From Acidobacteriota bacterium (lineage in GTDB: Bacteria; Acidobacteriota; Terriglobia; Terriglobales; Acidobacteriaceae), in the NCBI GenBank assembly GCA_021792135.1, contig JAJYVF010000026.1:1-64000 (forward strand): DNA of 64,000 nucleotides, given 5' to 3'. Below, piece by piece: positions 317 through 63,956 of this stretch. A model generated the notes under the pieces. It worked only from the letters and a program-made list of their open reading frames with translations, was not told the origin of the DNA and did not search any database. Both the position numbers and the translations under genes were made by a program. How positions within the stretch are numbered: the first letter of the stretch is position 1; the number at the start of each line of letters is the position of its first letter.

Positions 317-3300
317 TTATGCGGTCAGCTCGGCGGCCACCTTCTCGGTCACGAAGGCTTCGACGGTATCGCCAACCTTGATGTCGCCGAAGTTGGAGAT
401 GCCCACGCCGCACTCCATGCCGTTGGTGACTTCGCGGGCGTCTTCCTTGAAGCGCTTGAGCGAGGTCAGCTTGCCTTTGTACACCTGCACGCCGTCCCGC
501 ATGAGCCGCACTTCGGAATCGCGGCGGAGCACGCCATCGCTGACGCGGCAGCCGGCGATGGTGCCCACCTTCGGGATGTGGAAGATATTGAGCACCTCCG
601 CGCGCCCCAGGTAGTTCTCGCGGAAGACGGGCTCCAGCAGGCCCAGCATGGCTTTGCGGATCTCGTCCTGCAGCTCGTAGATGATGGTGTGCAGCCGGAT
701 CTCGACGTCTTCCTGCTCGGCCAGATCGGCGACCTTGCGCTCGGGGCGCACGTTGAAGCCGATGATGATGGCGTTGGAAGCCGATGCCAGCAGCACGTCG
801 CTCTCGGTAATCGCACCCACGCCGGAGTGGATGACCTTGATGCGCACTTTCTCGGTGGACATCTTCTGCAGCGAATCGGCCAGCACTTCGACCGAACCGG
901 TGACGTCGCCCTTGAGGATCAGCGGCAGTTCCTTCACGCCAGCCTGCTTGATCTGATCGGCGAGGCCTTCGAGGGTAACACGCGACGACTTGGCCAGCTG
1001 GGCCTCGCGCTCGCGCATCTTGCGGTACTGCCCGATGCCGCGGGCCTTGTCGCGATCGCTGACCACGAGGAATGTGTCACCGGCGTCCGGCATCGCTTCG
1101 AGCCCGAGGATCTCCACCGGCGTTGATGGCCCGGCTTCCTCCACGGGGCGTCCGCGATCGTCGAACATGGCGCGAATCTTGCCGAAGGTGTTGCCCACGA
1201 CGAAGTTGTCCTGGTTCTTCAGGGTGCCGTTCTGGACCAGCACCGTGGCCACGGCGCCGCGGCCGCGGTCGAGCTTGGCTTCGAGCACCGTGCCCACCGC
1301 CGAGCGGTTGGGCGTGGCTTTGAGCGTCTGCAGATCGGCGACCAGACAGACCATTTCCAGCAGCAGGTCCAGGTTCATGCGCTTCTTCGCCGAAACATCG
1401 ACGAAGACGGTGCTGCCGCCCCAGTCCTCGGGAACCAGCCCGCGATCGGCAAGCTGCTTCTTGACCCGGTCGGGCTGGGCTTCGGGCTTGTCGATTTTGT
1501 TGACCGCGACAATCATGGGGACGTTCGCAGCTTTGGCATGATCGATGGCTTCGAGCGTCTGCGGCATCACGCCGTCATCGGCGGCGACGACGATGACGAC
1601 GATATCGGTCACCTTAGCGCCGCGGGCGCGCATGCGGGTGAAGGCTTCGTGGCCCGGGGTGTCGAGGAAGACGATCTCGCGCCCGTAGGCCGGCGAGTCC
1701 GGCTTGCCGATCCTGACCTTGTAGGCGCCGATGTGCTGCGTGATCCCGCCCGCCTCGCCGCCGGCGACATCCGTTTCGCGGATGGCATCGAGGAGCGAGG
1801 TCTTGCCGTGATCGACGTGGCCCATCACCGTCACCACCGGCGGCCGAAAGACTTCCATCTCATCGGGATTCTCGGTGGAGAGCATGCTCTCGATGGCCTC
1901 GTTGGCCATCTGGTCCTCGAAGCTGATGACCTGCACCTCGGCGCCAAACTGCCGGGCGACGTCCTTCACCAGCTCGGCGTCGAGGGTCTGGTTGACGGTG
2001 ACGAAGACACCGCGCATCAGCAGCGTAGCGATGAGGTCCTTGGCGCGGACCTCGAGCTTTTCGGCCAGGTCCTTGACACTGATCCCTTCCGTCACCGTGA
2101 TGGTGCGGGTGATGGGAACGGGGCCGGACGGGACCTGGGCGCTCATCCTCGAAGGCGGCGCAAAGCCCTTCATCGGGCCTTCTTTGGTCTTCTCGTAATG
2201 CGGTCTTCCACGGCCCCTCGGTCCCGGACGCGGCGGACGCGGCGCTTCGCCCGGAGGCGGCGGAGCCAGTCCCGGCGCGCCCATGCCGGGGCGCGGTCCG
2301 AAGCCAGGGCGCTGGCCAAAGCCTGGCCGCGCACCCATGCCCGGACGCTGGCCCGGTCCCGGAGGACCGCCCGGCTGCGAACGTGTGGGATGCATCGGGC
2401 GTCGGCCCGGCTGCTGTCCTGCTCCGCCCATACCCGGACGCGGTCCTCCCGGGCCTCCGGCTGGACGGCGGTCGAAAATCGGTCTTCCGCGCTGAATGCC
2501 GCCCGGGGCCGCAGCAGAAGAAGGAGCAGAAGCAACTGGCGACGGTGGAGGCGCGCTGTAGACGGGGCGCGGACCGGTCTGCGGCATAATCACGCGACGC
2601 TGCGGGGCAGCAGGCGGCGCAGGCCGCGGCGCCGGAGGCGCTTCCTGAGCCGGTGCGGCGGCAGCAAGAGCGGGTTGCGGGGCCATCTCCGCAGGAGGCG
2701 GCGGAGCCGGAGCAGGAGCCGGGGGAGCGGCGGCAGCCGGCGGCTCGGCGACAACAGGCGCAGGCGGCGCGGGTGGCGGAGGCGCCACGACCGGCCGGGT
2801 TGCGGCTACCGGCGCGCTGGCGACCACGGGGCGGCCGTCGGCCGGCGGAGCAGGAGCGGCAGAGGGCGCGGCCGGACTGACCGGCGGTTTCGCCACCACC
2901 GGTCCAGCCGGGGGGCGCGATGCGATGGCCGGCGTCTGCGTCGCCGGCGAAGCGGCCACGGCCGGCGCTCCCGGACGGGGAGCAACGGGGGGTGCGGCGG
3001 CAACGATGGACGGTCCCTGGCGCGGCTGCGGCACGATGCGCCGAGGCGCAGGCCGGGCCTCAGCCGCAGGCGGCGCAGCTGGAGGGGGAGGCGCTGGTCT
3101 GGGAGCCGGTCCGGGGGCCGGAGCCGCAGTCTGGGCAGGCGCCGACGGCGCGGGCCTCGCCGCAGGCGGCGCAGCCGCTGCCTGCGACGGAGCGACGGCC
3201 GGAGGAACGGACCTCGGAGCCGGCGCCACATGCGCCAGCTCCTGCTGGCGCTTCTCCAGGATGGCCCTGGCTACATCGCCCACTCTGTGTACCTGCGACC

Positions 3301-3517
3301 AGTCAATTCGTGGCCCAGGCTCAGCCTCGTGGCGAACCGGAACGCTCACTCCGCGCCCCCTCAGGATGTGTGCGCGCACACGTTCGGCTTCATCCGCCTC
3401 AATCGAGCTGGAGTGGGTCTTCTTCTCGGTAACGCCGACTTCCACCAGAGCATCCAGGATGGCCTTACTCTTGACTTCCAGCTCTCGCGCTAATTCATTG
3501 ATTCGAACTGTACTCAT
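317..3517 (-). CDS. infB: Translation initiation factor IF-2
   Basis: IF-2 is the GTPase that places fMet-tRNA on the 30S subunit and promotes 50S joining. An IF2-N domain occupies about residues 1-52. A Pro/Ala/Gly-rich linker follows from about 95 to 440, with RPGMG/RPGFG-type repeats near its end, and then a second IF2-N-like segment. The G domain has GHVDHGKT near residue 565, DTPGHEAF near 619 and NKID near 671, and it is followed by the beta-barrel and C-terminal domains that bind fMet-tRNA. At 1066 residues it is longer than the roughly 890 of E. coli because of the linker. It is the last gene of rimP-nusA-infB, 186 bases after nusA, and is followed by a strong terminator. Confidence 0.97.
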
Positions 3518-3703
3518 CCGTCCCCGTGTCGATTTGACTTCCCACCGGTCCTTAGTCCCTCATACAGAAAACTCCCGGTTGTGGGTCTGATATCTCTTTC
3601 ATTATCCCCTGAAAACGCCCGGCTCGGGCGTCTCAATTCTGCGATCTCCGCACAAAAGGCCTGCCGCGCGCGCGCAGCGCAGCCGATTCAGGCCCGATGG
3701 AGG

Positions 3704-5371
3704 CTACGCACCGGTACCCTCATCCGCTTTTTTCTCGTCGAAGCGATCCTGCCGCGTCTCTTCCACATTGCCCTCCACGACCGCTTCGTCCGTGTCCACA
3801 TCGGGATTCGTCCCATGCTCGGCGAGGACTGCGCTGGTGTCCTCGTGCCCGGGCGCCACAGGCTCCGCACCCCGGTTATCAACGTACGGTCCTACCTCGG
3901 TGATCTCGGCCAACCGCTCTTCGGCAACCTCGTCGCTGACAAGGCCGGTGCTGTCGCGGGTGTTCTCCGGCTCGCTGCCAGCCTGGGTCAGACCCTGGCG
4001 CAGGGCATCGAGCTGCTCTTCGGTCGAGGCGTCTTCCGCGCGACGCGCAGCTTCCTCGCCTTCCGCCGGAGCCTCGGCCGGGCGCTCCTCGCCGGCTGCA
4101 TATTCACCGAAATAATGCCGCACGGCCACGCTGATCTTCTCGAGGGTCTTCTCTCCGATGCCCGGAATCTCCTCCAGCTGCTCGGGGGTCATGTCCGCCA
4201 GCGCTTCCACCGTGGTGATCCCGGCGGCCACCAGCTTTTGGATGATGGAATCGCCCAGCTCGCTGACCTGCTCGATGGGCGTGGCGGGTGTGGCGGCCAG
4301 AGCCTGCATCTGCTGCTCGACTTCCTGCCGCTTCTCCTCTTCGCTCTTGATGTCGATCTTCCAGCCCAGCAGCTTGGCCGCCAGGCGCACGTTCTGTCCC
4401 TTCTTGCCGATGGCCAGGGAGAGCTGGGTGTCGTCGACGATCACTTCCAGCTGCTTGTCGTTGAGATCGCTGATGCTGACGCGGCTGACCTTGGCCGGCT
4501 GCAGCGCCTTTTCGGCGAAGGTGGTGATCTCGTCGCTGAATTCGATGATGTCGATCTTTTCGCCGCGCAGCTCGCGGATGATGGACTGCACGCGCATGCC
4601 CTTCATGCCGACGCAGGCGCCGACCGGATCGACGTCCTTGTCGCGCGACATGACGGCGATCTTGGTGCGCTCGCCGGCTTCGCGGGCAATGGCGCGGATC
4701 ATGACAGTTCCGTCGTAGATCTCGGGCACTTCGCTTTGGAAGAGGTTCTGCACCAGTTCCGGAGCGGCACGCGAGACGATGACCTGGGGTCCGCGCGCGG
4801 CGCGATCCACACGCAGGAGAACCACGCGGGCGCGCTCGCCCACGGCAAACTGTTCCAGGCGGGACTGCTCGCGGCGCGGCATGCGCGCCTCGGCTTTGCC
4901 GAGATCGAAGATGACGTCCTGCAGCTCGACACGCTTCACCGTTGCGGTCAGCACCTCGCCCACGCGATGGGCGTATTCGTTGAAGACGGTGTCCCGCTCC
5001 GCCTCGCGCACCTTCTGGAAGATCACCTGTTTGGCCATCTGCGCGGCGATGCGGCCCAGCACATCGGTGGGCTTGTAGTAGCGGATCTCGCCGCCGACTT
5101 CGACCTCCGGCGCGAGCTGGCGGGCCTCTTCGAGCGCGATCTGGTTCAGCGGGTCCTCGATCTGCTCCGGCGTCTCGACCACGGTCTTGAAAATGTAGGC
5201 GCGAATCTCGCCGGTTTCCTTGTCCAGCTCGGCGCGCATGTTCTCCTGGGTCTTGTAGTATTTGCGCGTCGCGAGAGCGATCGCATCTTCCACCGCGGAG
5301 ACCACGATTTGCGGATCGATTCCCTTGTCGCGGCTCAGCGCCTCAATGCTGTCGTAAAGCACACTTGCCAT
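3704..5371 (-). CDS. nusA: Transcription termination/antitermination factor NusA
   Basis: NusA binds RNA polymerase and nascent RNA, enhancing pausing and intrinsic termination and acting in antitermination. The N-terminal RNA-polymerase-binding domain (about residues 1-125) is followed by an S1 domain, two KH domains, and a helix-hairpin-helix segment near residues 400-440 (LEEIPGIGEKTLEKI). The tail is acidic and rich in Glu and Ala. I place the start at the ATG at 5371, giving MASVLYDSIEAL, because that matches the family N-terminus and a GAGAG-type site precedes it; an open extension to 5437 is unlikely to be translated. It lies between rimP and infB in the usual bacterial order. NusA from this gene could feed back on the terminator in the operon leader. 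Confidence 0.96.
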   Translation of the reverse strand: MASVLYDSIEALSRDKGIDPQIVVSAVEDAIALATRKYYKTQENMRAELDKETGEIRAYIFKTVVETPEQIEDPLNQIALEEARQLAPEVEVGGEIRYYKPTDVLGRIAAQMAKQVIFQKVREAERDTVFNEYAHRVGEVLTATVKRVELQDVIFDLGKAEARMPRREQSRLEQFAVGERARVVLLRVDRAARGPQVIVSRAAPELVQNLFQSEVPEIYDGTVMIRAIAREAGERTKIAVMSRDKDVDPVGACVGMKGMRVQSIIRELRGEKIDIIEFSDEITTFAEKALQPAKVSRVSISDLNDKQLEVIVDDTQLSLAIGKKGQNVRLAAKLLGWKIDIKSEEEKRQEVEQQMQALAATPATPIEQVSELGDSIIQKLVAAGITTVEALADMTPEQLEEIPGIGEKTLEKISVAVRHYFGEYAAGEERPAEAPAEGEEAARRAEDASTEEQLDALRQGLTQAGSEPENTRDSTGLVSDEVAEERLAEITEVGPYVDNRGAEPVAPGHEDTSAVLAEHGTNPDVDTDEAVVEGNVEETRQDRFDEKKADEGTGA

Positions 5372-57814: not shown

Positions 57815-57865
57815 CCGATCCCGGAGCCTCTCGTAAAATACCAGGTGTGTTCCGAGGAGGATTCT

Positions 57866-58705
57866 TTGCCTGAGCTACCCCCGTTTCCGCTCACGCTTGA
57901 CGGCTCCAGCCTGCTGCACCAGATGTTCCGCTTCGAGTGGAGCGCGTGGCGGCGTCTCGATCCTGCCGGCCGGGACCGCGCCGTGGCGGAAGTCTCGTCG
58001 CTGCTCGCTCCCATGGAGCGCGGCAGCAGCGAAGGTCATCCCAGCCAGTCCGCCGTCTACGCGCAGCTCGGCCATAAGGGCGACCTGATGCTCGTCCACT
58101 ACCGCGACACCATCGATCAGCTCGCTGAGGTCGAGCGCGGCCTCGCCCGCACAGAGTTCGGCACCTTCCTGCTGCCGACCCACTCTTATCTCTCGATTGT
58201 CGAACTGGGCCTCTACGAATCCTCTTCGAAGCTGTACGCGCAGCTCGCGTCCGAAGGGGTCGAGCCTTACTCCGATGCCTGGGAGAAGCGTGTCGAAGAG
58301 ACCGTCGCCCGCCAGTCCGCCGCCATGTCCGCGCGCCTCTACCCCGCCATCCCTGCGGCGAAGTACCTCTGCTTCTATCCCATGGATAAGCGCCGCGGCG
58401 AACACGTCAACTGGTACTCGGCGCCGATGCCGGATCGCGCGCGCATGATGCAGGACCACGGCCTGATCGGCCGCCGCTTTGCGGGCACTGTGAAGCAGAT
58501 CATCTCCGGCTCCATCGGCCTCGATGACTGGGAGTGGGGCGTCGACCTCCACGCCGACGATCCCGGCGTCTTCAAAAAGCTCATCTACGAAATGCGTTTC
58601 GACGAGGCCAGCGCGTTGTACGGCCTCTTCGGCGCGTTCTACGTCGGCGTGCGGCTGCCGGTCAGCAGGCTGGGCGAGTGGCTCGGCGTCGACGGGACCA
58701 GGTGA
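57866..58705 (+). CDS. hemQ: Coproheme decarboxylase (chlorite-dismutase family, HemQ)
   Basis: HemQ oxidatively decarboxylates coproheme III to heme b in the coproporphyrin-dependent pathway. The 279-residue product shows the family signature YPMDKRRGEHVNWYSAPMPDRARMM with the catalytic Tyr, followed by HGLIGRRFAGTVKQIISGSIGLDDWEWGVDLHADD and KLIYEMRFDEASA. I choose the TTG at 57866 because GAGGAGG lies five bases upstream. Its stop overlaps the GTG of hpnA, so heme and hopanoid genes are translationally coupled here. Confidence 0.9.
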   Translation: MPELPPFPLTLDGSSLLHQMFRFEWSAWRRLDPAGRDRAVAEVSSLLAPMERGSSEGHPSQSAVYAQLGHKGDLMLVHYRDTIDQLAEVERGLARTEFGTFLLPTHSYLSIVELGLYESSSKLYAQLASEGVEPYSDAWEKRVEETVARQSAAMSARLYPAIPAAKYLCFYPMDKRRGEHVNWYSAPMPDRARMMQDHGLIGRRFAGTVKQIISGSIGLDDWEWGVDLHADDPGVFKKLIYEMRFDEASALYGLFGAFYVGVRLPVSRLGEWLGVDGTR

Positions 58706-59849: not shown

Positions 59850-60104
59850 TCAATCGCACCCCACCGCAAACCTCAGGGCCTCGCAAATTTCCCGCATCCG
59901 CGCTGAGCTGAGCTGCGCCACCCCGCCTTCCCGGTTCGCTCTGCCGAAGGGTGACAACACATTGTGAAGGTTCACCGCGAACGGCTCCTTCAAGCCATCT
60001 TCTTCGCTCAGGACCACCTCCGAAGGCACGCCGCGAACGGTCGACGTGATGGGCGCCACGGTGACGGCAGTGTATTCCACATTCATTTTCCCCGGCTCCC
60101 TCAT
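59850..60104 (-). pseudogene. 5'-truncated mazF/pemK toxin remnant
   Basis: The frame (ATG at 60104, or 60086) encodes TAVTVAPITSTVRGVPSEVV, SEEDGLKEPFAVNLHNVL and RMREICEALRFAVGCD. This corresponds to the second beta-strand onward of MazF-type endoribonucleases of the VAPITST subfamily. The N-terminal strand and loop with the RPVL-type motif (about 25-30 residues) are missing, and hpnG begins on the other strand at 60131. No antitoxin frame is adjacent. The remnant is antisense between hpnA and hpnG in a 427-base gap that holds nothing else I can recognise. Confidence 0.7.
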
Positions 60105-60130: not shown

Positions 60131-60799
60131 ATGAACCGCATCGCCCTCATCGCCGCCTTTCCCGGGGAGCTGAAGCCTCTGGTGCAGGGCTGGGAGCGCC
60201 GCGGCGGGCTTTTCGTCGGGCACATCGGCCCGCATGAAGCCATTGCCGCCGCCGCCGGCATGGGAGCCGACGCTGCCGTGCGCGCCTGCGAGGCCGTGCG
60301 CGCCCAGGGCGGCGTCGATACGCTGATTTCCATGGGCTGGGCCGGATCGCTCTCCTGCGGCCTCAGGCCTCCCGATGCCGTCGCGGTGCGCGAGGTGGTC
60401 GACGCAGCGAGCGGCGAGCGATTCGCGACTGGCTCTGCCCAGGGGCAACGCCTCGTCACGCTCAATCACGTCGCAGCCGCCCCCGAAAAGCGGCGTCTCG
60501 CGGAGAAATACCAGGCCGCGCTGGTCGACATGGAAGCCGGAGCCGTGGCGCAATTCGCCCGTACCAGGGGGTTTAGCTTCTACTGCTTCAAGGGCATCAC
60601 CGACGGACCGAATGACAAGCTGCCCGACTTCGCCCGCTTCACCGGCGCCGACAGCCAGCTGCGCATGGGCAGCTTTCTCCTCTGGTCGCTGCTCCATCCG
60701 CAATCCTGGTCGGTGCTGGGCCGGCTGGGAAAAAACAGCCGCGAAGCCGCCGCGCGGCTGGCAGAGATGGTGCCGCGCTGCCTGGCGGATCAACCATAG
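60131..60799 (+). CDS. hpnG: Hopanoid-associated phosphorylase HpnG
   Basis: HpnG removes adenine from adenosylhopane to give ribosylhopane (or its phosphate) during side-chain synthesis. The 222-residue product has the nucleoside phosphorylase fold: MNRIALIAAFPGELKPL, GPHEAIAAAAGMGADAA, LISMGWAGSLS, and the substrate-binding VDMEAGAVAQFA, followed by CFKGITDGPND. It is upstream of two dehydrogenase genes and hpnC on the same strand. Confidence 0.88.
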   Translation: MNRIALIAAFPGELKPLVQGWERRGGLFVGHIGPHEAIAAAAGMGADAAVRACEAVRAQGGVDTLISMGWAGSLSCGLRPPDAVAVREVVDAASGERFATGSAQGQRLVTLNHVAAAPEKRRLAEKYQAALVDMEAGAVAQFARTRGFSFYCFKGITDGPNDKLPDFARFTGADSQLRMGSFLLWSLLHPQSWSVLGRLGKNSREAAARLAEMVPRCLADQP

Positions 60800-60817
60800 A
60801 TTATGCTCGGAGTAGTC

Positions 60818-61924
60818 ATGGCCACAGCCCTCCGCAGTCAGCTTCAGCAGCAGAGCACCATCCCCGCCACCATGCGCGCTGCCGTCTATCGCGGCATCAA
60901 CGATGTGCGGGTGGAAACCGTCCCTGTCCCGTCGATCGGCCCCGGCGAGGTGCTGATTCGCGTCGAGTGCTGCGGAGTCTGCGGCACCGACCTCAAGAAG
61001 ATCCACACCGGCTCGCACTCCGCACCCCGCATCTTCGGTCATGAGACCGCAGGCGTGATCGCGGCCGCCGGCGAAGGCGTGCGCTCCTTCGCTGTGGGCG
61101 ACCGCGTCATGGTCTTTCACCACATCCCCTGCGGGGACTGCTACTACTGTCGCAAAAAGACCTTTGCCCAGTGCAATGACTATAAGCGCGTCGGCTGCAC
61201 CGCGGGCTTCGAACCCTCCGGCGGCGGCTTTGCCGAGTACGTCCGCGTGATGCCGTGGATCGTCAGGCGCGGCGGCCTGATCCATATACCCGACGATGTT
61301 CCCTTCGAACAGGCCGCTTTCGTCGAGCCGGTGAACACCTGCCTCAAGGGCATTCGCAGCCTCAATGTCGCTCCCGACGAAACCGTGCTGGTTATCGGCC
61401 AGGGGCCCATCGGCATCCTGCTCGCAGCTCTCGCTTCGCGCACAGGAGCCAGCGTGCTCACCTCCGACCTCTATCCCGAGCGCCACGCGATGGCCGCTAC
61501 GTACGGCCTGCATCGCCCCATCGACGCCGGGAAAGAAGATGTGGTCGCGGCAGCCCACGCCGCCACCGAGGGCCGCGGCGCCGATGCGGTCGTCGTGGCG
61601 GTCGGCAGCAACGGCCTCATCCGCACCGCCATGGACGCCGTCCGGCCCGGAGGCCGCGTGCTGCTCTTTGCGGCAACCCAGCGCGGGGAGGCCGTCTTCG
61701 ACCCGGCGGCGGTCTGCATGGACGAAAAGTTCCTTGTGGGCTCCTACAGCTCCTCCATCGACATTCAGGACGAAGTCGCCGGCCTCGTTTTCGGCGGTTA
61801 TCGCAACGGCTTCGACCTCACGCGCCTCATTTCCCATCGATTTCCGCTGGAGCAAGCCGTGGAGGCCATTCGGGTTGCGTCCGCGCCCTGCGCCACATCG
61901 ATGAAAATCTTCATCCATCCGTAA
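60818..61924 (+). CDS. Zinc-dependent medium-chain dehydrogenase
   Basis: From the ATG at 60818 (GGAG five bases upstream; ATG 60803 less likely) the 368-residue enzyme has catalytic-zinc ligands in GVCGTDLKK, GHETAG and VEPVNTC. The four structural-zinc cysteines are in CGDCYYCRKKTFAQC, and the NAD(P)-binding VIGQGPIGILLAALA is intact. It is of the sorbitol/threonine dehydrogenase type, which acts on polyols and aldoses. It lies between hpnG and a second dehydrogenase gene ahead of hpnC. That position suggests a role in the hopanoid side chain, but this is inference. Confidence 0.88.
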   Translation: MATALRSQLQQQSTIPATMRAAVYRGINDVRVETVPVPSIGPGEVLIRVECCGVCGTDLKKIHTGSHSAPRIFGHETAGVIAAAGEGVRSFAVGDRVMVFHHIPCGDCYYCRKKTFAQCNDYKRVGCTAGFEPSGGGFAEYVRVMPWIVRRGGLIHIPDDVPFEQAAFVEPVNTCLKGIRSLNVAPDETVLVIGQGPIGILLAALASRTGASVLTSDLYPERHAMAATYGLHRPIDAGKEDVVAAAHAATEGRGADAVVVAVGSNGLIRTAMDAVRPGGRVLLFAATQRGEAVFDPAAVCMDEKFLVGSYSSSIDIQDEVAGLVFGGYRNGFDLTRLISHRFPLEQAVEAIRVASAPCATSMKIFIHP

Positions 61925-61952
61925 CTGCCGCACGTCTGAGAAAATAGAAGTG

Positions 61953-62996
61953 ATGGCAGCGCAAATGACAGCCGCCGTGCTGCACGGCCGCGAAGACCTG
62001 CGTATCGAGCAGGTGCCCATGCCCAGGGCCGGGCCGGGTGAAATGATTATCCGCGTCGCCGCCGCTCTCACCTGCGGAACGGATCTGAAGATCTACCGCC
62101 GCGGCTATCACGCGCGCATGCTCAAACCCCCGATTGCTTTCGGTCATGAGCTGGCCGGCACGGTCTACGAAGTGGGCAGGGGCGTCAGCCCGTTCCGTGC
62201 TGGCGACCGTGTCGTGGCGCTCAACTCCGCGCCCTGCGGCCAGTGTTATTTTTGCCGGCGCGATCAGGAGAACCTCTGCGACGATCTCCTCTTCAATAAC
62301 GGCGCCTATGCCGAATATCTGCGGGTTCCGGCGCGCATCGTCGCCAGGAACACCCTGCTGATTCCCGACGGCATTCCCCTGGAACACGCCGCCATGACCG
62401 AACCGCTGGCCTGCGTCGTGCGCGGCCTCGACGAGTGCCAGGCTCGGGGCGGCGATACCGTTGCCGTCATTGGAGCAGGGCCCATCGGACTGATGTTCAT
62501 GCACGTTGCCCATCTGGCCGGCCTCCATGTCATCGCCGTCGTCAAGCATGACGAGCAGGTGGCCGCCGCCCGTACCTTCGGCGCATCCAGCGTGGTGAAG
62601 ATCACCGCCGTCCCCGATCCCGTTGCCGCGGTTCGCGCCCTCACCCCGGGCAGCCGTGGCGTGGACCTTGCCATCGAAGCCGTCGCCATTCCCCAGACCT
62701 GGCAGTGGGCCGTGGAGATGGTGCGCAAGGGCGGCACGGTCAACTTCTTCGGCGGATGCGCCGCCGGCACCAAAGTGGAGCTCGATACGAATCGCCTGCA
62801 CTACAGCAGCATCACCCTGCGCGCCAGTTTCCATCACACGCCCGCGGCCGCGCGCCGGGCCTTCGATCTGATCGTCAGCGGCCGCTTCCGCTGCAGCGAG
62901 ACTATCACCGGCCGCGCGCCGCTCACAGATCTGGTGCAGGTATTTCACCGGCTCGTGCAGGGCACCGGCGACATCAAGACAGCTATCATTCCCTGA
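61953..62996 (+). CDS. Zinc-dependent medium-chain dehydrogenase
   Basis: The 347-residue enzyme (ATG 61953, with a GTG one codon earlier) has TCGTDLKIY, GHELAG and TEPLACV for catalytic zinc. CGQCYFCRRDQENLC serves structural zinc and VIGAGPIGLMFMHVAHLAG binds cofactor. It is a distinct paralogue of the preceding dehydrogenase, not a recent duplicate. The order hpnG, dehydrogenase, dehydrogenase, hpnC with 28 and 15 base gaps on this side argues for one transcript. Substrate unproven. Confidence 0.88.
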   Translation: MAAQMTAAVLHGREDLRIEQVPMPRAGPGEMIIRVAAALTCGTDLKIYRRGYHARMLKPPIAFGHELAGTVYEVGRGVSPFRAGDRVVALNSAPCGQCYFCRRDQENLCDDLLFNNGAYAEYLRVPARIVARNTLLIPDGIPLEHAAMTEPLACVVRGLDECQARGGDTVAVIGAGPIGLMFMHVAHLAGLHVIAVVKHDEQVAAARTFGASSVVKITAVPDPVAAVRALTPGSRGVDLAIEAVAIPQTWQWAVEMVRKGGTVNFFGGCAAGTKVELDTNRLHYSSITLRASFHHTPAAARRAFDLIVSGRFRCSETITGRAPLTDLVQVFHRLVQGTGDIKTAIIP

Positions 62997-63011: not shown

Positions 63012-63956
63012 ATGGTAACGACCCCACAACAGGATCGCATCGAGCGCGGATGGGCCGCCCTGCCGCCCGAGTACCGCATCCCGGAGAGAGCGCCGGCTCT
63101 CGAGGAAGCGCGCGACTGGTGCCGCCGCCTGGCCGAGTCGCACTATGAGAATTTCCACGTGGCTTCCTGGTTTCTCCCCAGGCGCCTGCGGCCCCACTTC
63201 CACAGCATCTACGCCTACTGCCGCGTCTCGGACGATCTGGGCGATGAAGTTGGCGATCCGGATCTCTCCCTGGCCCTGCTCGATCTCTGGGGCGCCGAGC
63301 TGGACGCCTGCTATCGCGGCGAGGCTCGCCATCCCGTCTTTGTGGCGCTGGCGGAAACCATCCGCGCCTGCAACATTCCCCAAGAGCCCTTCGCCGATCT
63401 GCTCGTCGCCTTTCGTCAGGACCAGACCGTAAACCGTTTCCCCACGATGGCTGACCTGCTCGGCTACTGCCGCTATTCGGCGAATCCGGTGGGCCGCATC
63501 GTGCTCTATGCCTGCGGCTATCGCGACGCGGAGCGCTTCGCGCTTTCCGACCAGACCTGCTCCGCCCTGCAACTCGCCAACTTCTGGCAGGATGTCGCCG
63601 TCGATTACGGCAAAGGGCGCATTTACCTGCCGATCGAGGACATGCAGCGCTTCGGCGTGGACGAGCAGACCATAGCCGCCCGGCGCTTTACGCCGCAGTT
63701 CCGCGAACTGATGGGCCTCGAGGTCGATCACGCGCGACGCATGTTCCATGCCGGCCTGCCTCTGGTCGGCATGGTGGACCGCGAGCTGGCCGTCGATCTC
63801 GACCTCTTCTCCCGCGGTGGCCTCGAGATTCTGCGTGCCATCGAGCGGCAAGACTACAACGTGCTGCGTGCGCGGCCGGCCATCTCGAAGCCGCGCAAGG
63901 CGGCGCTGCTGGTGCGCGCGCTGGCGCGCAGGCTCTTTGCGGGGAACCCCGCTTGA
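63012..63956 (+). CDS. hpnC: Squalene synthase HpnC
   Basis: HpnC converts presqualene diphosphate to hydroxysqualene, a step in squalene formation for hopanoids. The 314-residue trans-isoprenyl synthase has both Asp-rich motifs: DDLGDE (residues 74-79) and QDVAVD (193-198, D194 and D198). It also has YCRYSANPVGR and the family N-terminus with HYENFHVASWFLPRRLRPHF. The stop overlaps a TTG that opens the next frame. HpnC is distinguished from HpnD by the YENF/HVAS region. Confidence 0.92.
   Translation: MVTTPQQDRIERGWAALPPEYRIPERAPALEEARDWCRRLAESHYENFHVASWFLPRRLRPHFHSIYAYCRVSDDLGDEVGDPDLSLALLDLWGAELDACYRGEARHPVFVALAETIRACNIPQEPFADLLVAFRQDQTVNRFPTMADLLGYCRYSANPVGRIVLYACGYRDAERFALSDQTCSALQLANFWQDVAVDYGKGRIYLPIEDMQRFGVDEQTIAARRFTPQFRELMGLEVDHARRMFHAGLPLVGMVDRELAVDLDLFSRGGLEILRAIERQDYNVLRARPAISKPRKAALLVRALARRLFAGNPA

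Follow-up and report, generated by a model that had tools for sequence, protein, structure and literature searches.

A zinc dehydrogenase pair of the acidobacterial hopanoid locus as a lineage-specific candidate for redox chemistry on the C35 side chain

HpnH and HpnG together make ribosylhopane, as earlier work on both protein families established: removal of adenine from adenosylhopane leaves a ribose whose open form is an aldose, with its C-1 corresponding to hopanoid C-35, and reduction of this compound gives bacteriohopanetetrol (BHT), from which most extended hopanoids, as well as widely used molecular fossils, derive. Which enzyme performs that reduction is the question raised by a 64,000-nucleotide stretch of DNA from a member of the Acidobacteriaceae (bases 1 to 64,000 of contig JAJYVF010000026.1, our C37, in a genome of 5.1 Mb; referred to here as the window), where two zinc-dependent dehydrogenase genes, designated ADH1 and ADH2, stand between hpnG and hpnC. 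A first-pass annotation of the window had called the step unassigned and had proposed the two enzymes for it. The step is still without an established enzyme in the available text of a 2025 paper, which near alphaproteobacterial clusters offers no reductase candidate besides hpnA, hpnB, hpnL, and hpnM (PMC12583986), and a literature search that covered few subscription papers found no paper assigning either gene. Here, we propose, with slightly less than even confidence, that in some Acidobacteriota ADH1 and ADH2 work as a redox pair dedicated to the C35 side chain of hopanoids.

Both genes are intact and lie on the forward strand, ADH1 at positions 60803 to 61924 (373 amino acids) and ADH2 at 61950 to 62996 (348 amino acids; the start is either GTG at 61950 or ATG at 61953). 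ADH1 begins 3 bp downstream of hpnG, the two dehydrogenase genes are separated by 25 bp, and 15 bp separate ADH2 from hpnC. Each product passes the Pfam cutoffs for ADH_N (PF08240) and ADH_zinc_N (PF00107), which places both in the zinc-containing medium-chain dehydrogenase/reductase (MDR) superfamily; the whole genome holds 15 ADH_N matches. The first-pass annotation had described two complete zinc dehydrogenases of polyol type between hpnG and hpnC, all on one strand and the two clearly different from each other, and this description is borne out by the open reading frames, the domains, the gaps, and an identity of 41% in the best-aligning segment (ADH1 residues 19 to 297). Its start at 60818 proved to be an in-frame internal ATG of the ADH1 reading frame; its end at 62996 was correct.

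Residue conservation was counted over the hopanoid-clade sequences, 121 for ADH1 and 98 for ADH2. On the basis of superfamily knowledge, we take Cys60, His80, Glu81, and Glu175 of ADH1 to be zinc ligands and Cys110, Cys113, Cys116, and Cys124 to be structural cysteines, and all of these are unchanged in 121 of 121 sequences. The presumed counterparts in ADH2 (Cys42, His66, Glu67, and Glu151, with Cys96, Cys99, Cys102, and Cys110) are likewise unchanged in 98 of 98. The catalytic Cys-His-Glu set, the four-cysteine structural lobe, and the GxGxxG motif occur in every sequence of both groups, and both enzymes are catalytically complete. They part where the second Rossmann strand ends: residue 222 of ADH1 is acidic in all 121 sequences (Asp in all but one, which has Glu), whereas the equivalent ADH2 residue, 198, is Val, Gly, or Ala in all 98 and never an acid, and the adjoining residue 199 is basic (Lys or Arg) in 96 and Asn in the other 2. 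Under what we take to be the usual rule of the family, an acid at this strand end goes with NAD, and its absence beside a basic neighbor goes with NADP. Read in this way, an NAD-type ADH1 is paired with a predicted NADP-type ADH2 across the hopanoid clades, and the opposite cofactor types argue for different jobs, whether or not these concern the successive or different side chains suggested in the first pass.

AlphaFold2 models reached mean predicted local distance difference test scores of 87.1 (ADH1) and 84.4 (ADH2). The best fold match of the ADH2 model is 4ejm, an NADP complex (Z score of 40.5 and root mean square deviation of 1.9 over 328 residues), in which a Thr-Arg aligns to the Val-Lys of ADH2 so that the Arg stands opposite Lys199. 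Relatives of the pair in the Protein Data Bank (PDB) include an NADP(H) ketose reductase (1e3j) and the sorbitol (1pl6), xylitol (7y9p), and L-arabinitol (3m6i) dehydrogenases. Ratios of nonsynonymous to synonymous substitution (dN/dS) against four congeners are 0.11 to 0.16 for ADH1 and 0.11 to 0.15 for ADH2; for hpnG, the values against three congeners are 0.26 to 0.32.

Gene order was assessed in one scan of named genomes that yielded 562 confirmed loci, and the counts that follow refer to the best 80 of these, i.e., those most similar to the query. The 80 come only from Acidobacteria, the groups named being Acidobacteriaceae, Acidobacteriales, or simply Acidobacteria. In 77 of them, hpnG lies immediately 5' of ADH1 on the same strand; as for the other three, hpnG lies about 0.9 kb upstream in L126, L143 begins at a contig edge, and no hpnG occurs within 4.7 kb in L140. 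ADH2 follows immediately 3' of ADH1 in 62 loci. In the remaining 18, ADH1 ends an hpnA-hpnG block, and the members of this group that were inspected are mostly Edaphobacter, Granulicella, and Terriglobus. Such split genomes keep ADH1 with hpnA-hpnG, and ADH2 precedes hpnC or hpnD in all eight of the split-genome ADH2 loci examined; because the two genes occur apart here, they are not inseparable. The full row, ispH-shc-hpnH-hpnA-hpnG-ADH1-ADH2-hpnC-hpnD-hpnE, runs unbroken in one genome (G208, locus L103). Outside the Acidobacteriaceae, linkage to hpn genes was found in families f3 (L230), f5 (L101 and L228), f53 (L097), and f31 (L071, L100, L102, L104, L211, L212, L220, and L222 to L227). The f31 order is ispH-hpnA-ADH1-ADH2 followed by hpnD or hpnC, and hpnG is located elsewhere rather than within the row. 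Chance falls far short of explaining how well the order is conserved; the placement between hpnG and hpnC noted in the first pass is not a deep pattern, as f31 makes plain.

The split loci bear on an earlier suggestion. Sinninghe Damste et al. (2017) described an acidobacterial cluster C of hpnA, hpnG, and a gene termed ug1, and a cluster A of ug2, hpnC, hpnD, and hpnE (PMC5462960). Judged by position, ADH1 would be ug1 and ADH2 would be ug2. The latter, about 350 amino acids long, often bears the annotation Zn-binding alcohol dehydrogenase and was reported from subdivision 1 and 3 genomes but not from Chloracidobacterium thermophilum; in the available text, ug2 was linked to the squalene genes, and hpnA was proposed for the conversion of ribosylhopane to BHT (PMC5462960). 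Were the whole pair to serve the isoprenoid and squalene side (ispH and hpnC-hpnD-hpnE), as those authors suspected for ug2, one would understand why ADH2 remains beside hpnC or hpnD in split clusters and why one genome (G257) retains the pair together with HpnC while lacking shc and hpnH. However, the HpnC/HpnD/HpnE route to squalene requires no alcohol dehydrogenase according to the same source (PMC5462960), ADH1 accompanies hpnA-hpnG and not hpnC, and HpnC is present, with the pair absent, in family f73 and in Chloracidobacterium-like genomes (G271, G327, and G089). We regard a role on the squalene side as very unlikely.

Co-occurrence was surveyed in a phylum sample of 297 Acidobacteriota genomes, the same set being used for each gene search. 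hpnH was called at an E value of 1e-30 or lower, giving 77 genomes (76 of them above the model cutoff), and ADH1 and ADH2 orthologues were called at a score of at least 360 bits, a line set at gaps in the score distribution (about 360 versus 202 bits for ADH1 and about 367 versus 294 bits for ADH2). On these terms, 46 genomes carry ADH1, 48 carry ADH2, and 75 have an HpnA match above the cutoff. Every one of the 46 ADH1 genomes also carries ADH2, 45 have HpnA above the cutoff, and 42 have hpnH, so the outcome against which the first-pass annotation had staked its proposal, a pair found mostly in genomes without hopanoids, is not what the phylum sample shows. ADH2 occurs without ADH1 only in G309 and G169; in the former, the contig with hpnA stops just past that gene (L108). 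By family, ADH1 is present in 29 of 31 hpnH genomes in f1, 2 of 2 in f5, 9 of 10 in f31, 1 of 1 in f42, and 1 of 1 in f53. Within f1 and f5, two families of the same class, ADH1 accompanies every hpnG match (31 genomes), and the two hpnH genomes in which hpnG gave no match lack ADH1. hpnH is present and ADH1 absent in G286 (81% complete), and G133, G160, and G202 lack ADH1, their nearest ADH2 relative being only 45 to 46% identical. Four genomes have ADH1 without hpnH, and three of these hold the pair inside a hopanoid cluster: G150 (93% complete) also has shc, while G247 (84%) and G318 (88%) have no shc above the cutoff and carry the pair within ispH-hpnA-ADH1-ADH2-hpnD.

A set of 41 relatives gave a similar picture: ADH1 was found in 23 and hpnH in 24, so that 22 genomes have both genes, 16 have neither, and 3 are discordant. 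Those with neither are all 14 genomes of the sister family f2, which belongs to the same order, together with G018 and G040; since the layout is common to f1, f3, f5, and f53, joint loss would explain f2 and G018 more simply. Among the discordant genomes, G001 (91% complete) has ADH1 and a full hpnA-to-hpnE row (L221) with no hpnH or shc found, and G004 has a contig that starts inside ADH2 (L229). The third, G019, keeps ispH-shc-hpnH and lacks hpnA, hpnG, ADH1, ADH2, and hpnC; as all five genes are missing together, it is uninformative about the pair alone. The genes missing from G309 and G004 are probably assembly gaps. Fisher tests, which take no account of shared ancestry and serve only as description, gave 2.3e-8 for the 41 relatives and 3.8e-25 for the 297 genomes. 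In several families of Acidobacteriota, then, ADH1 and ADH2 are both part of the hopanoid locus.

The substrates, direction, and division of steps that we infer for the pair are as follows. The open-chain C-35 aldehyde of ribosylhopane would be reduced to the primary alcohol of BHT, most likely by ADH2 with NADPH; as a predicted NADP-type polyol/aldose enzyme adjoining the pathway, ADH2 is a fitting candidate for this reaction. ADH1, being of NAD type, may act on the same chain in the opposite sense, in a second polyol step such as oxidation of a secondary alcohol (for instance at C-34), or it may alternatively be a second reductase. Reduction alone needs one enzyme, two are always kept, and their cofactor types differ; for these reasons, both enzymes probably act on the hopanoid side chain, with ADH1 doing a further step. 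That at least one of them reduces ribosylhopane is a more tentative claim, to which we give not quite an even chance. NADPH-linked reduction and NAD-linked oxidation of one polyol would resemble polyol-pathway logic (aldose to alditol to ketose) or epimerization. In its fullest form, a module of this kind would let the NADPH-type reductase make BHT and the NAD-type partner reoxidize a secondary alcohol to give an isomerized or keto C35 hopanoid, which we consider unlikely. Product data in favor of the redox-pair reading come from Edaphobacter aggregans DSM 19364, which yielded only tetrafunctionalized bacteriohopanepolyols (BHPs) (PMC5462960, Table 1) and whose locus (L182) reads ispH-shc-hpnH-hpnA-hpnG-ADH1.

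The same cofactor pattern would also fit enzymes that act after BHT, with ADH1 (NAD) oxidizing a secondary alcohol, ADH2 (NADPH) reducing the resulting ketone from the other face to give an epimer (e.g., 34S to 34R) or else a keto- or ketose-type polyol being formed, and another enzyme reducing ribosylhopane. Opposite cofactor types throughout the clades are more in keeping with an oxidation coupled to a reduction than with one reductive step, the known relatives of the pair are polyol and ketose enzymes, and hopanoid makers without the pair would just lack the modification. Moreover, 34R and 34S BHT both occur in bacteria, although the two were left unseparated in the 2025 survey of Alphaproteobacteria (PMC12583986). 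On the other side, our literature search, which covered few subscription papers, found no report of BHT isomers, BHT stereochemistry, or ribonylhopane for Acidobacteria, and the split genomes leave ADH1 alone with hpnG and ADH2 alone with hpnC or hpnD. We judge action after BHT somewhat unlikely.

Several observations weigh against ADH2, or the pair, as the reductase of ribosylhopane. Plain reduction calls for one enzyme, yet two are present. The PDB relatives named above act mostly on secondary alcohols, and reduction of ribosylhopane yields a primary one. The best fold match of the ADH1 model is likewise the NADP-binding protein 4ejm (Z scores of 38.9 and 38.8); since the two enzymes share it, the cofactor split rests on residues and not on fold. 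In distribution, ADH1 is found in only 5 of the 19 hpnH-bearing families of the phylum sample and is absent from 14, and 35 of the 77 hpnH-bearing genomes lack it. Inspection of stretches around hpnG or hpnH in pair-less genomes, with the reference set only as queries so that an unrelated reductase could escape, disclosed no ADH1 or ADH2 orthologue; one such region (L122) gave a single distant match (28% identity, 70 bits). In family f42 (L094 and L095), the pair stands apart from the hpn genes. One of these genomes, the 100% complete G257 (L094), has both genes at 51% identity each, HpnC, and an HpnA match below the cutoff, and it gave no match to shc, hpnH, or hpnG. G257 is a real counterexample to a pair that occurs only with hopanoids: either the pathway was lost and the pair retained, or the pair was put to another use. 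G169 carries a lone ADH2 orthologue (51% identity) without hpnH, shc, or hpnC. Finally, Chloracidobacterium thermophilum makes tetrafunctionalized BHPs without ug2 (PMC5462960).

HpnA belongs in this reckoning too. It is an NAD(P)-binding short-chain dehydrogenase/reductase (SDR) that exceeds its cutoff in 72 of the 77 hpnH genomes, in families with and without ADH1 alike, a far better match than that of ADH1 (42 of 77), and it could itself be the ribosylhopane reductase, as suggested in 2017 (PMC5462960), with the zinc enzymes as accessories. Yet HpnA is missing from 6 of 48 hpnH-bearing alphaproteobacterial genomes according to the available text of the 2025 paper (PMC12583986), and G097 has hpnH with no HpnA match; a reductase role for HpnA strikes us as unlikely. 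Because BHT-type hopanoids are made without the pair and HpnA tracks hpnH better, ADH1 and ADH2 are a lineage-specific candidate and not the general missing enzyme; with ADH1 in only 5 of 19 families, the pair cannot be the general ribosylhopane reductase. The proposal of the first-pass annotation thus survives as a candidate for this lineage, by linkage and co-occurrence, and fails as a general assignment.

The ancestry of the pair was examined with a phylogenetic tree, in which deep forks reach a support of only 83 to 87 and several rows are long. The hopanoid ADH1s fall into a single group (support of 99/98), and the hopanoid ADH2s form another together with the lone ADH2 of G169 (95/97), the latter within a wider ADH2 family (100/99) that also contains a plasmid protein of Rhodococcus opacus and one partner each from other dehydrogenase tandems. 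A recent tandem duplication, first suggested by the appearance of ADH2s among the best nonorthologous matches of ADH1, is not supported by this tree, as ADH2 groups with the tandem-partner dehydrogenases and the Rhodococcus protein and away from ADH1. The other tandem pairs, made up of distant zinc dehydrogenases (an ADH2 relative and a second enzyme), were seen in G116, G244, G169, G089, G303, G145, G101, and G266 (L085, L086, L088 to L090, L093, L098, and L099), some of these genomes lacking hpnH, and their surroundings vary; no hpn genes of the reference set were found in the surrounding stretches, and the hpnH of G303 lies about 15 kb off. Plasmids gave no match of at least 60% identity. 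The nearest plasmid relative of ADH2, the R. opacus protein (46.5% identity), adjoins a DeoR regulator, an FGGY sugar kinase, and a class II aldolase, a neighborhood of the kind seen in sugar or polyol breakdown. ADH2 probably came from a stock of sugar or polyol dehydrogenases and was recruited to the hopanoid locus.

These relatives also supply the case for seeing the pair as general sugar or polyol dehydrogenases that are mere passengers in the cluster. Tandem dehydrogenases about 32 to 47% identical to the pair do occur in acidobacterial genomes without hpn surroundings, four of them hpnH negative (G116, G244, G169, and G266), and the nearest plasmid relative sits in a sugar operon. Those tandem pairs nevertheless fall outside the hopanoid clades, the lone ADH2 orthologue of G169 excepted, and the ADH1 clade is firm at 99/98; linkage, joint absence, and strong constraint are not expected of passenger genes. 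A passenger role is highly improbable. Three more specific identities were rejected. The best NCBIfam matches of the two enzymes by E value are L-threonine 3-dehydrogenase (TIGR00692; 156.3 bits for ADH1 and 166.7 for ADH2, against a cutoff of 458.35) and scyllo-inosose 3-dehydrogenase IolM (NF041097; 162.1 and 158.9 bits, against a cutoff of 450), and both fall far short. The model named HpnZ (TIGR03366) also fails its cutoff; it is associated with phosphonates, and its name is no evidence of a hopanoid function.

The rest of the locus is arranged as follows, the genes inside the window being on the forward strand except where noted. hpnA, annotated as an SDR "hopanoid-associated sugar epimerase," occupies 58690 (a provisional start) to 59703 (TIGR03466, 490 bits, above the cutoff of 367.65). 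The adenosylhopane nucleosidase/phosphorylase gene hpnG lies at 60131 to 60799 and scores 77.2 bits with TIGR03468, below the cutoff of 187.1. It is the sole match to this model in the genome at an E value of 0.001 or lower, and because none of the 297 phylum genomes reaches the cutoff, the model does not cover the phylum, and automatic annotation will miss acidobacterial HpnG. hpnC follows the pair at 63012 to 63956 (TIGR03464, 358.9 bits, above the cutoff of 250.45). Beyond the window end, C37 continues with hpnD (234.1 bits, below the cutoff of 278.6) and then hpnE (485.7 bits, above the cutoff), whereas ispH, shc, and hpnH of this genome sit on a different contig, C14. Upstream, hemQ (57845 to 58705; NF008913, 313 bits, above the cutoff) runs straight into hpnA and holds the same place in L126, L141, and L221. 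The 427-bp gap between hpnA and hpnG contains an antisense remnant of a PemK/MazF-like toxin of the type II toxin-antitoxin kind (59850 to 60104, reverse strand), matched to positions 31 to 106 of the 109 in PF02452 at 24.5 bits. In the close relative L126, about 2.4 kb (2822 to 5266) separate hpnA and hpnG, versus 427 bp in the window.

If ADH2 or the pair does reduce ribosylhopane, the step would be assigned to a gene for the first time, and a further reaction by ADH1 would open a new side-chain branch. The pair offers two named proteins to assay: across a large soil family it is tied to hpnG, it is present or absent along with the pathway, and its members divide between NAD and NADP types. 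Should neither be the reductase, the pair would nonetheless indicate a new side-chain step in the hopanoids of Acidobacteria, a group in which the composite forms have been little described.

Among known systems, the polyol and ketose zinc MDR enzymes share with ADH1 and ADH2 the fold, the zinc sites, and the Cys-His-Glu set (Z scores of 36.5 to 38.6 against the ADH2 and ADH1 models); they are only 23 to 28% identical by structure alignment, and none that we found is known from a hopanoid locus. Bodlenner et al. reportedly observed in 2015 a ribosylhopane reductase activity in extracts of Methylobacterium organophilum that used NADPH. That activity is the same reaction as the one proposed here, and its gene is unassigned in the available text of the 2025 paper (PMC12583986). 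The closest precedent is the acidobacterial survey of 2017: Acidobacteriaceae KBS 83, a strain named there, has the order hpnG-ADH1-ADH2-hpnC in our scan (L170; PMC5462960). For ug1, the available text of that survey gives neither function nor family, and it assigns no cofactor types to ug1 or ug2 (PMC5462960); the present analysis adds the predicted split between an NAD-type and an NADP-type partner.

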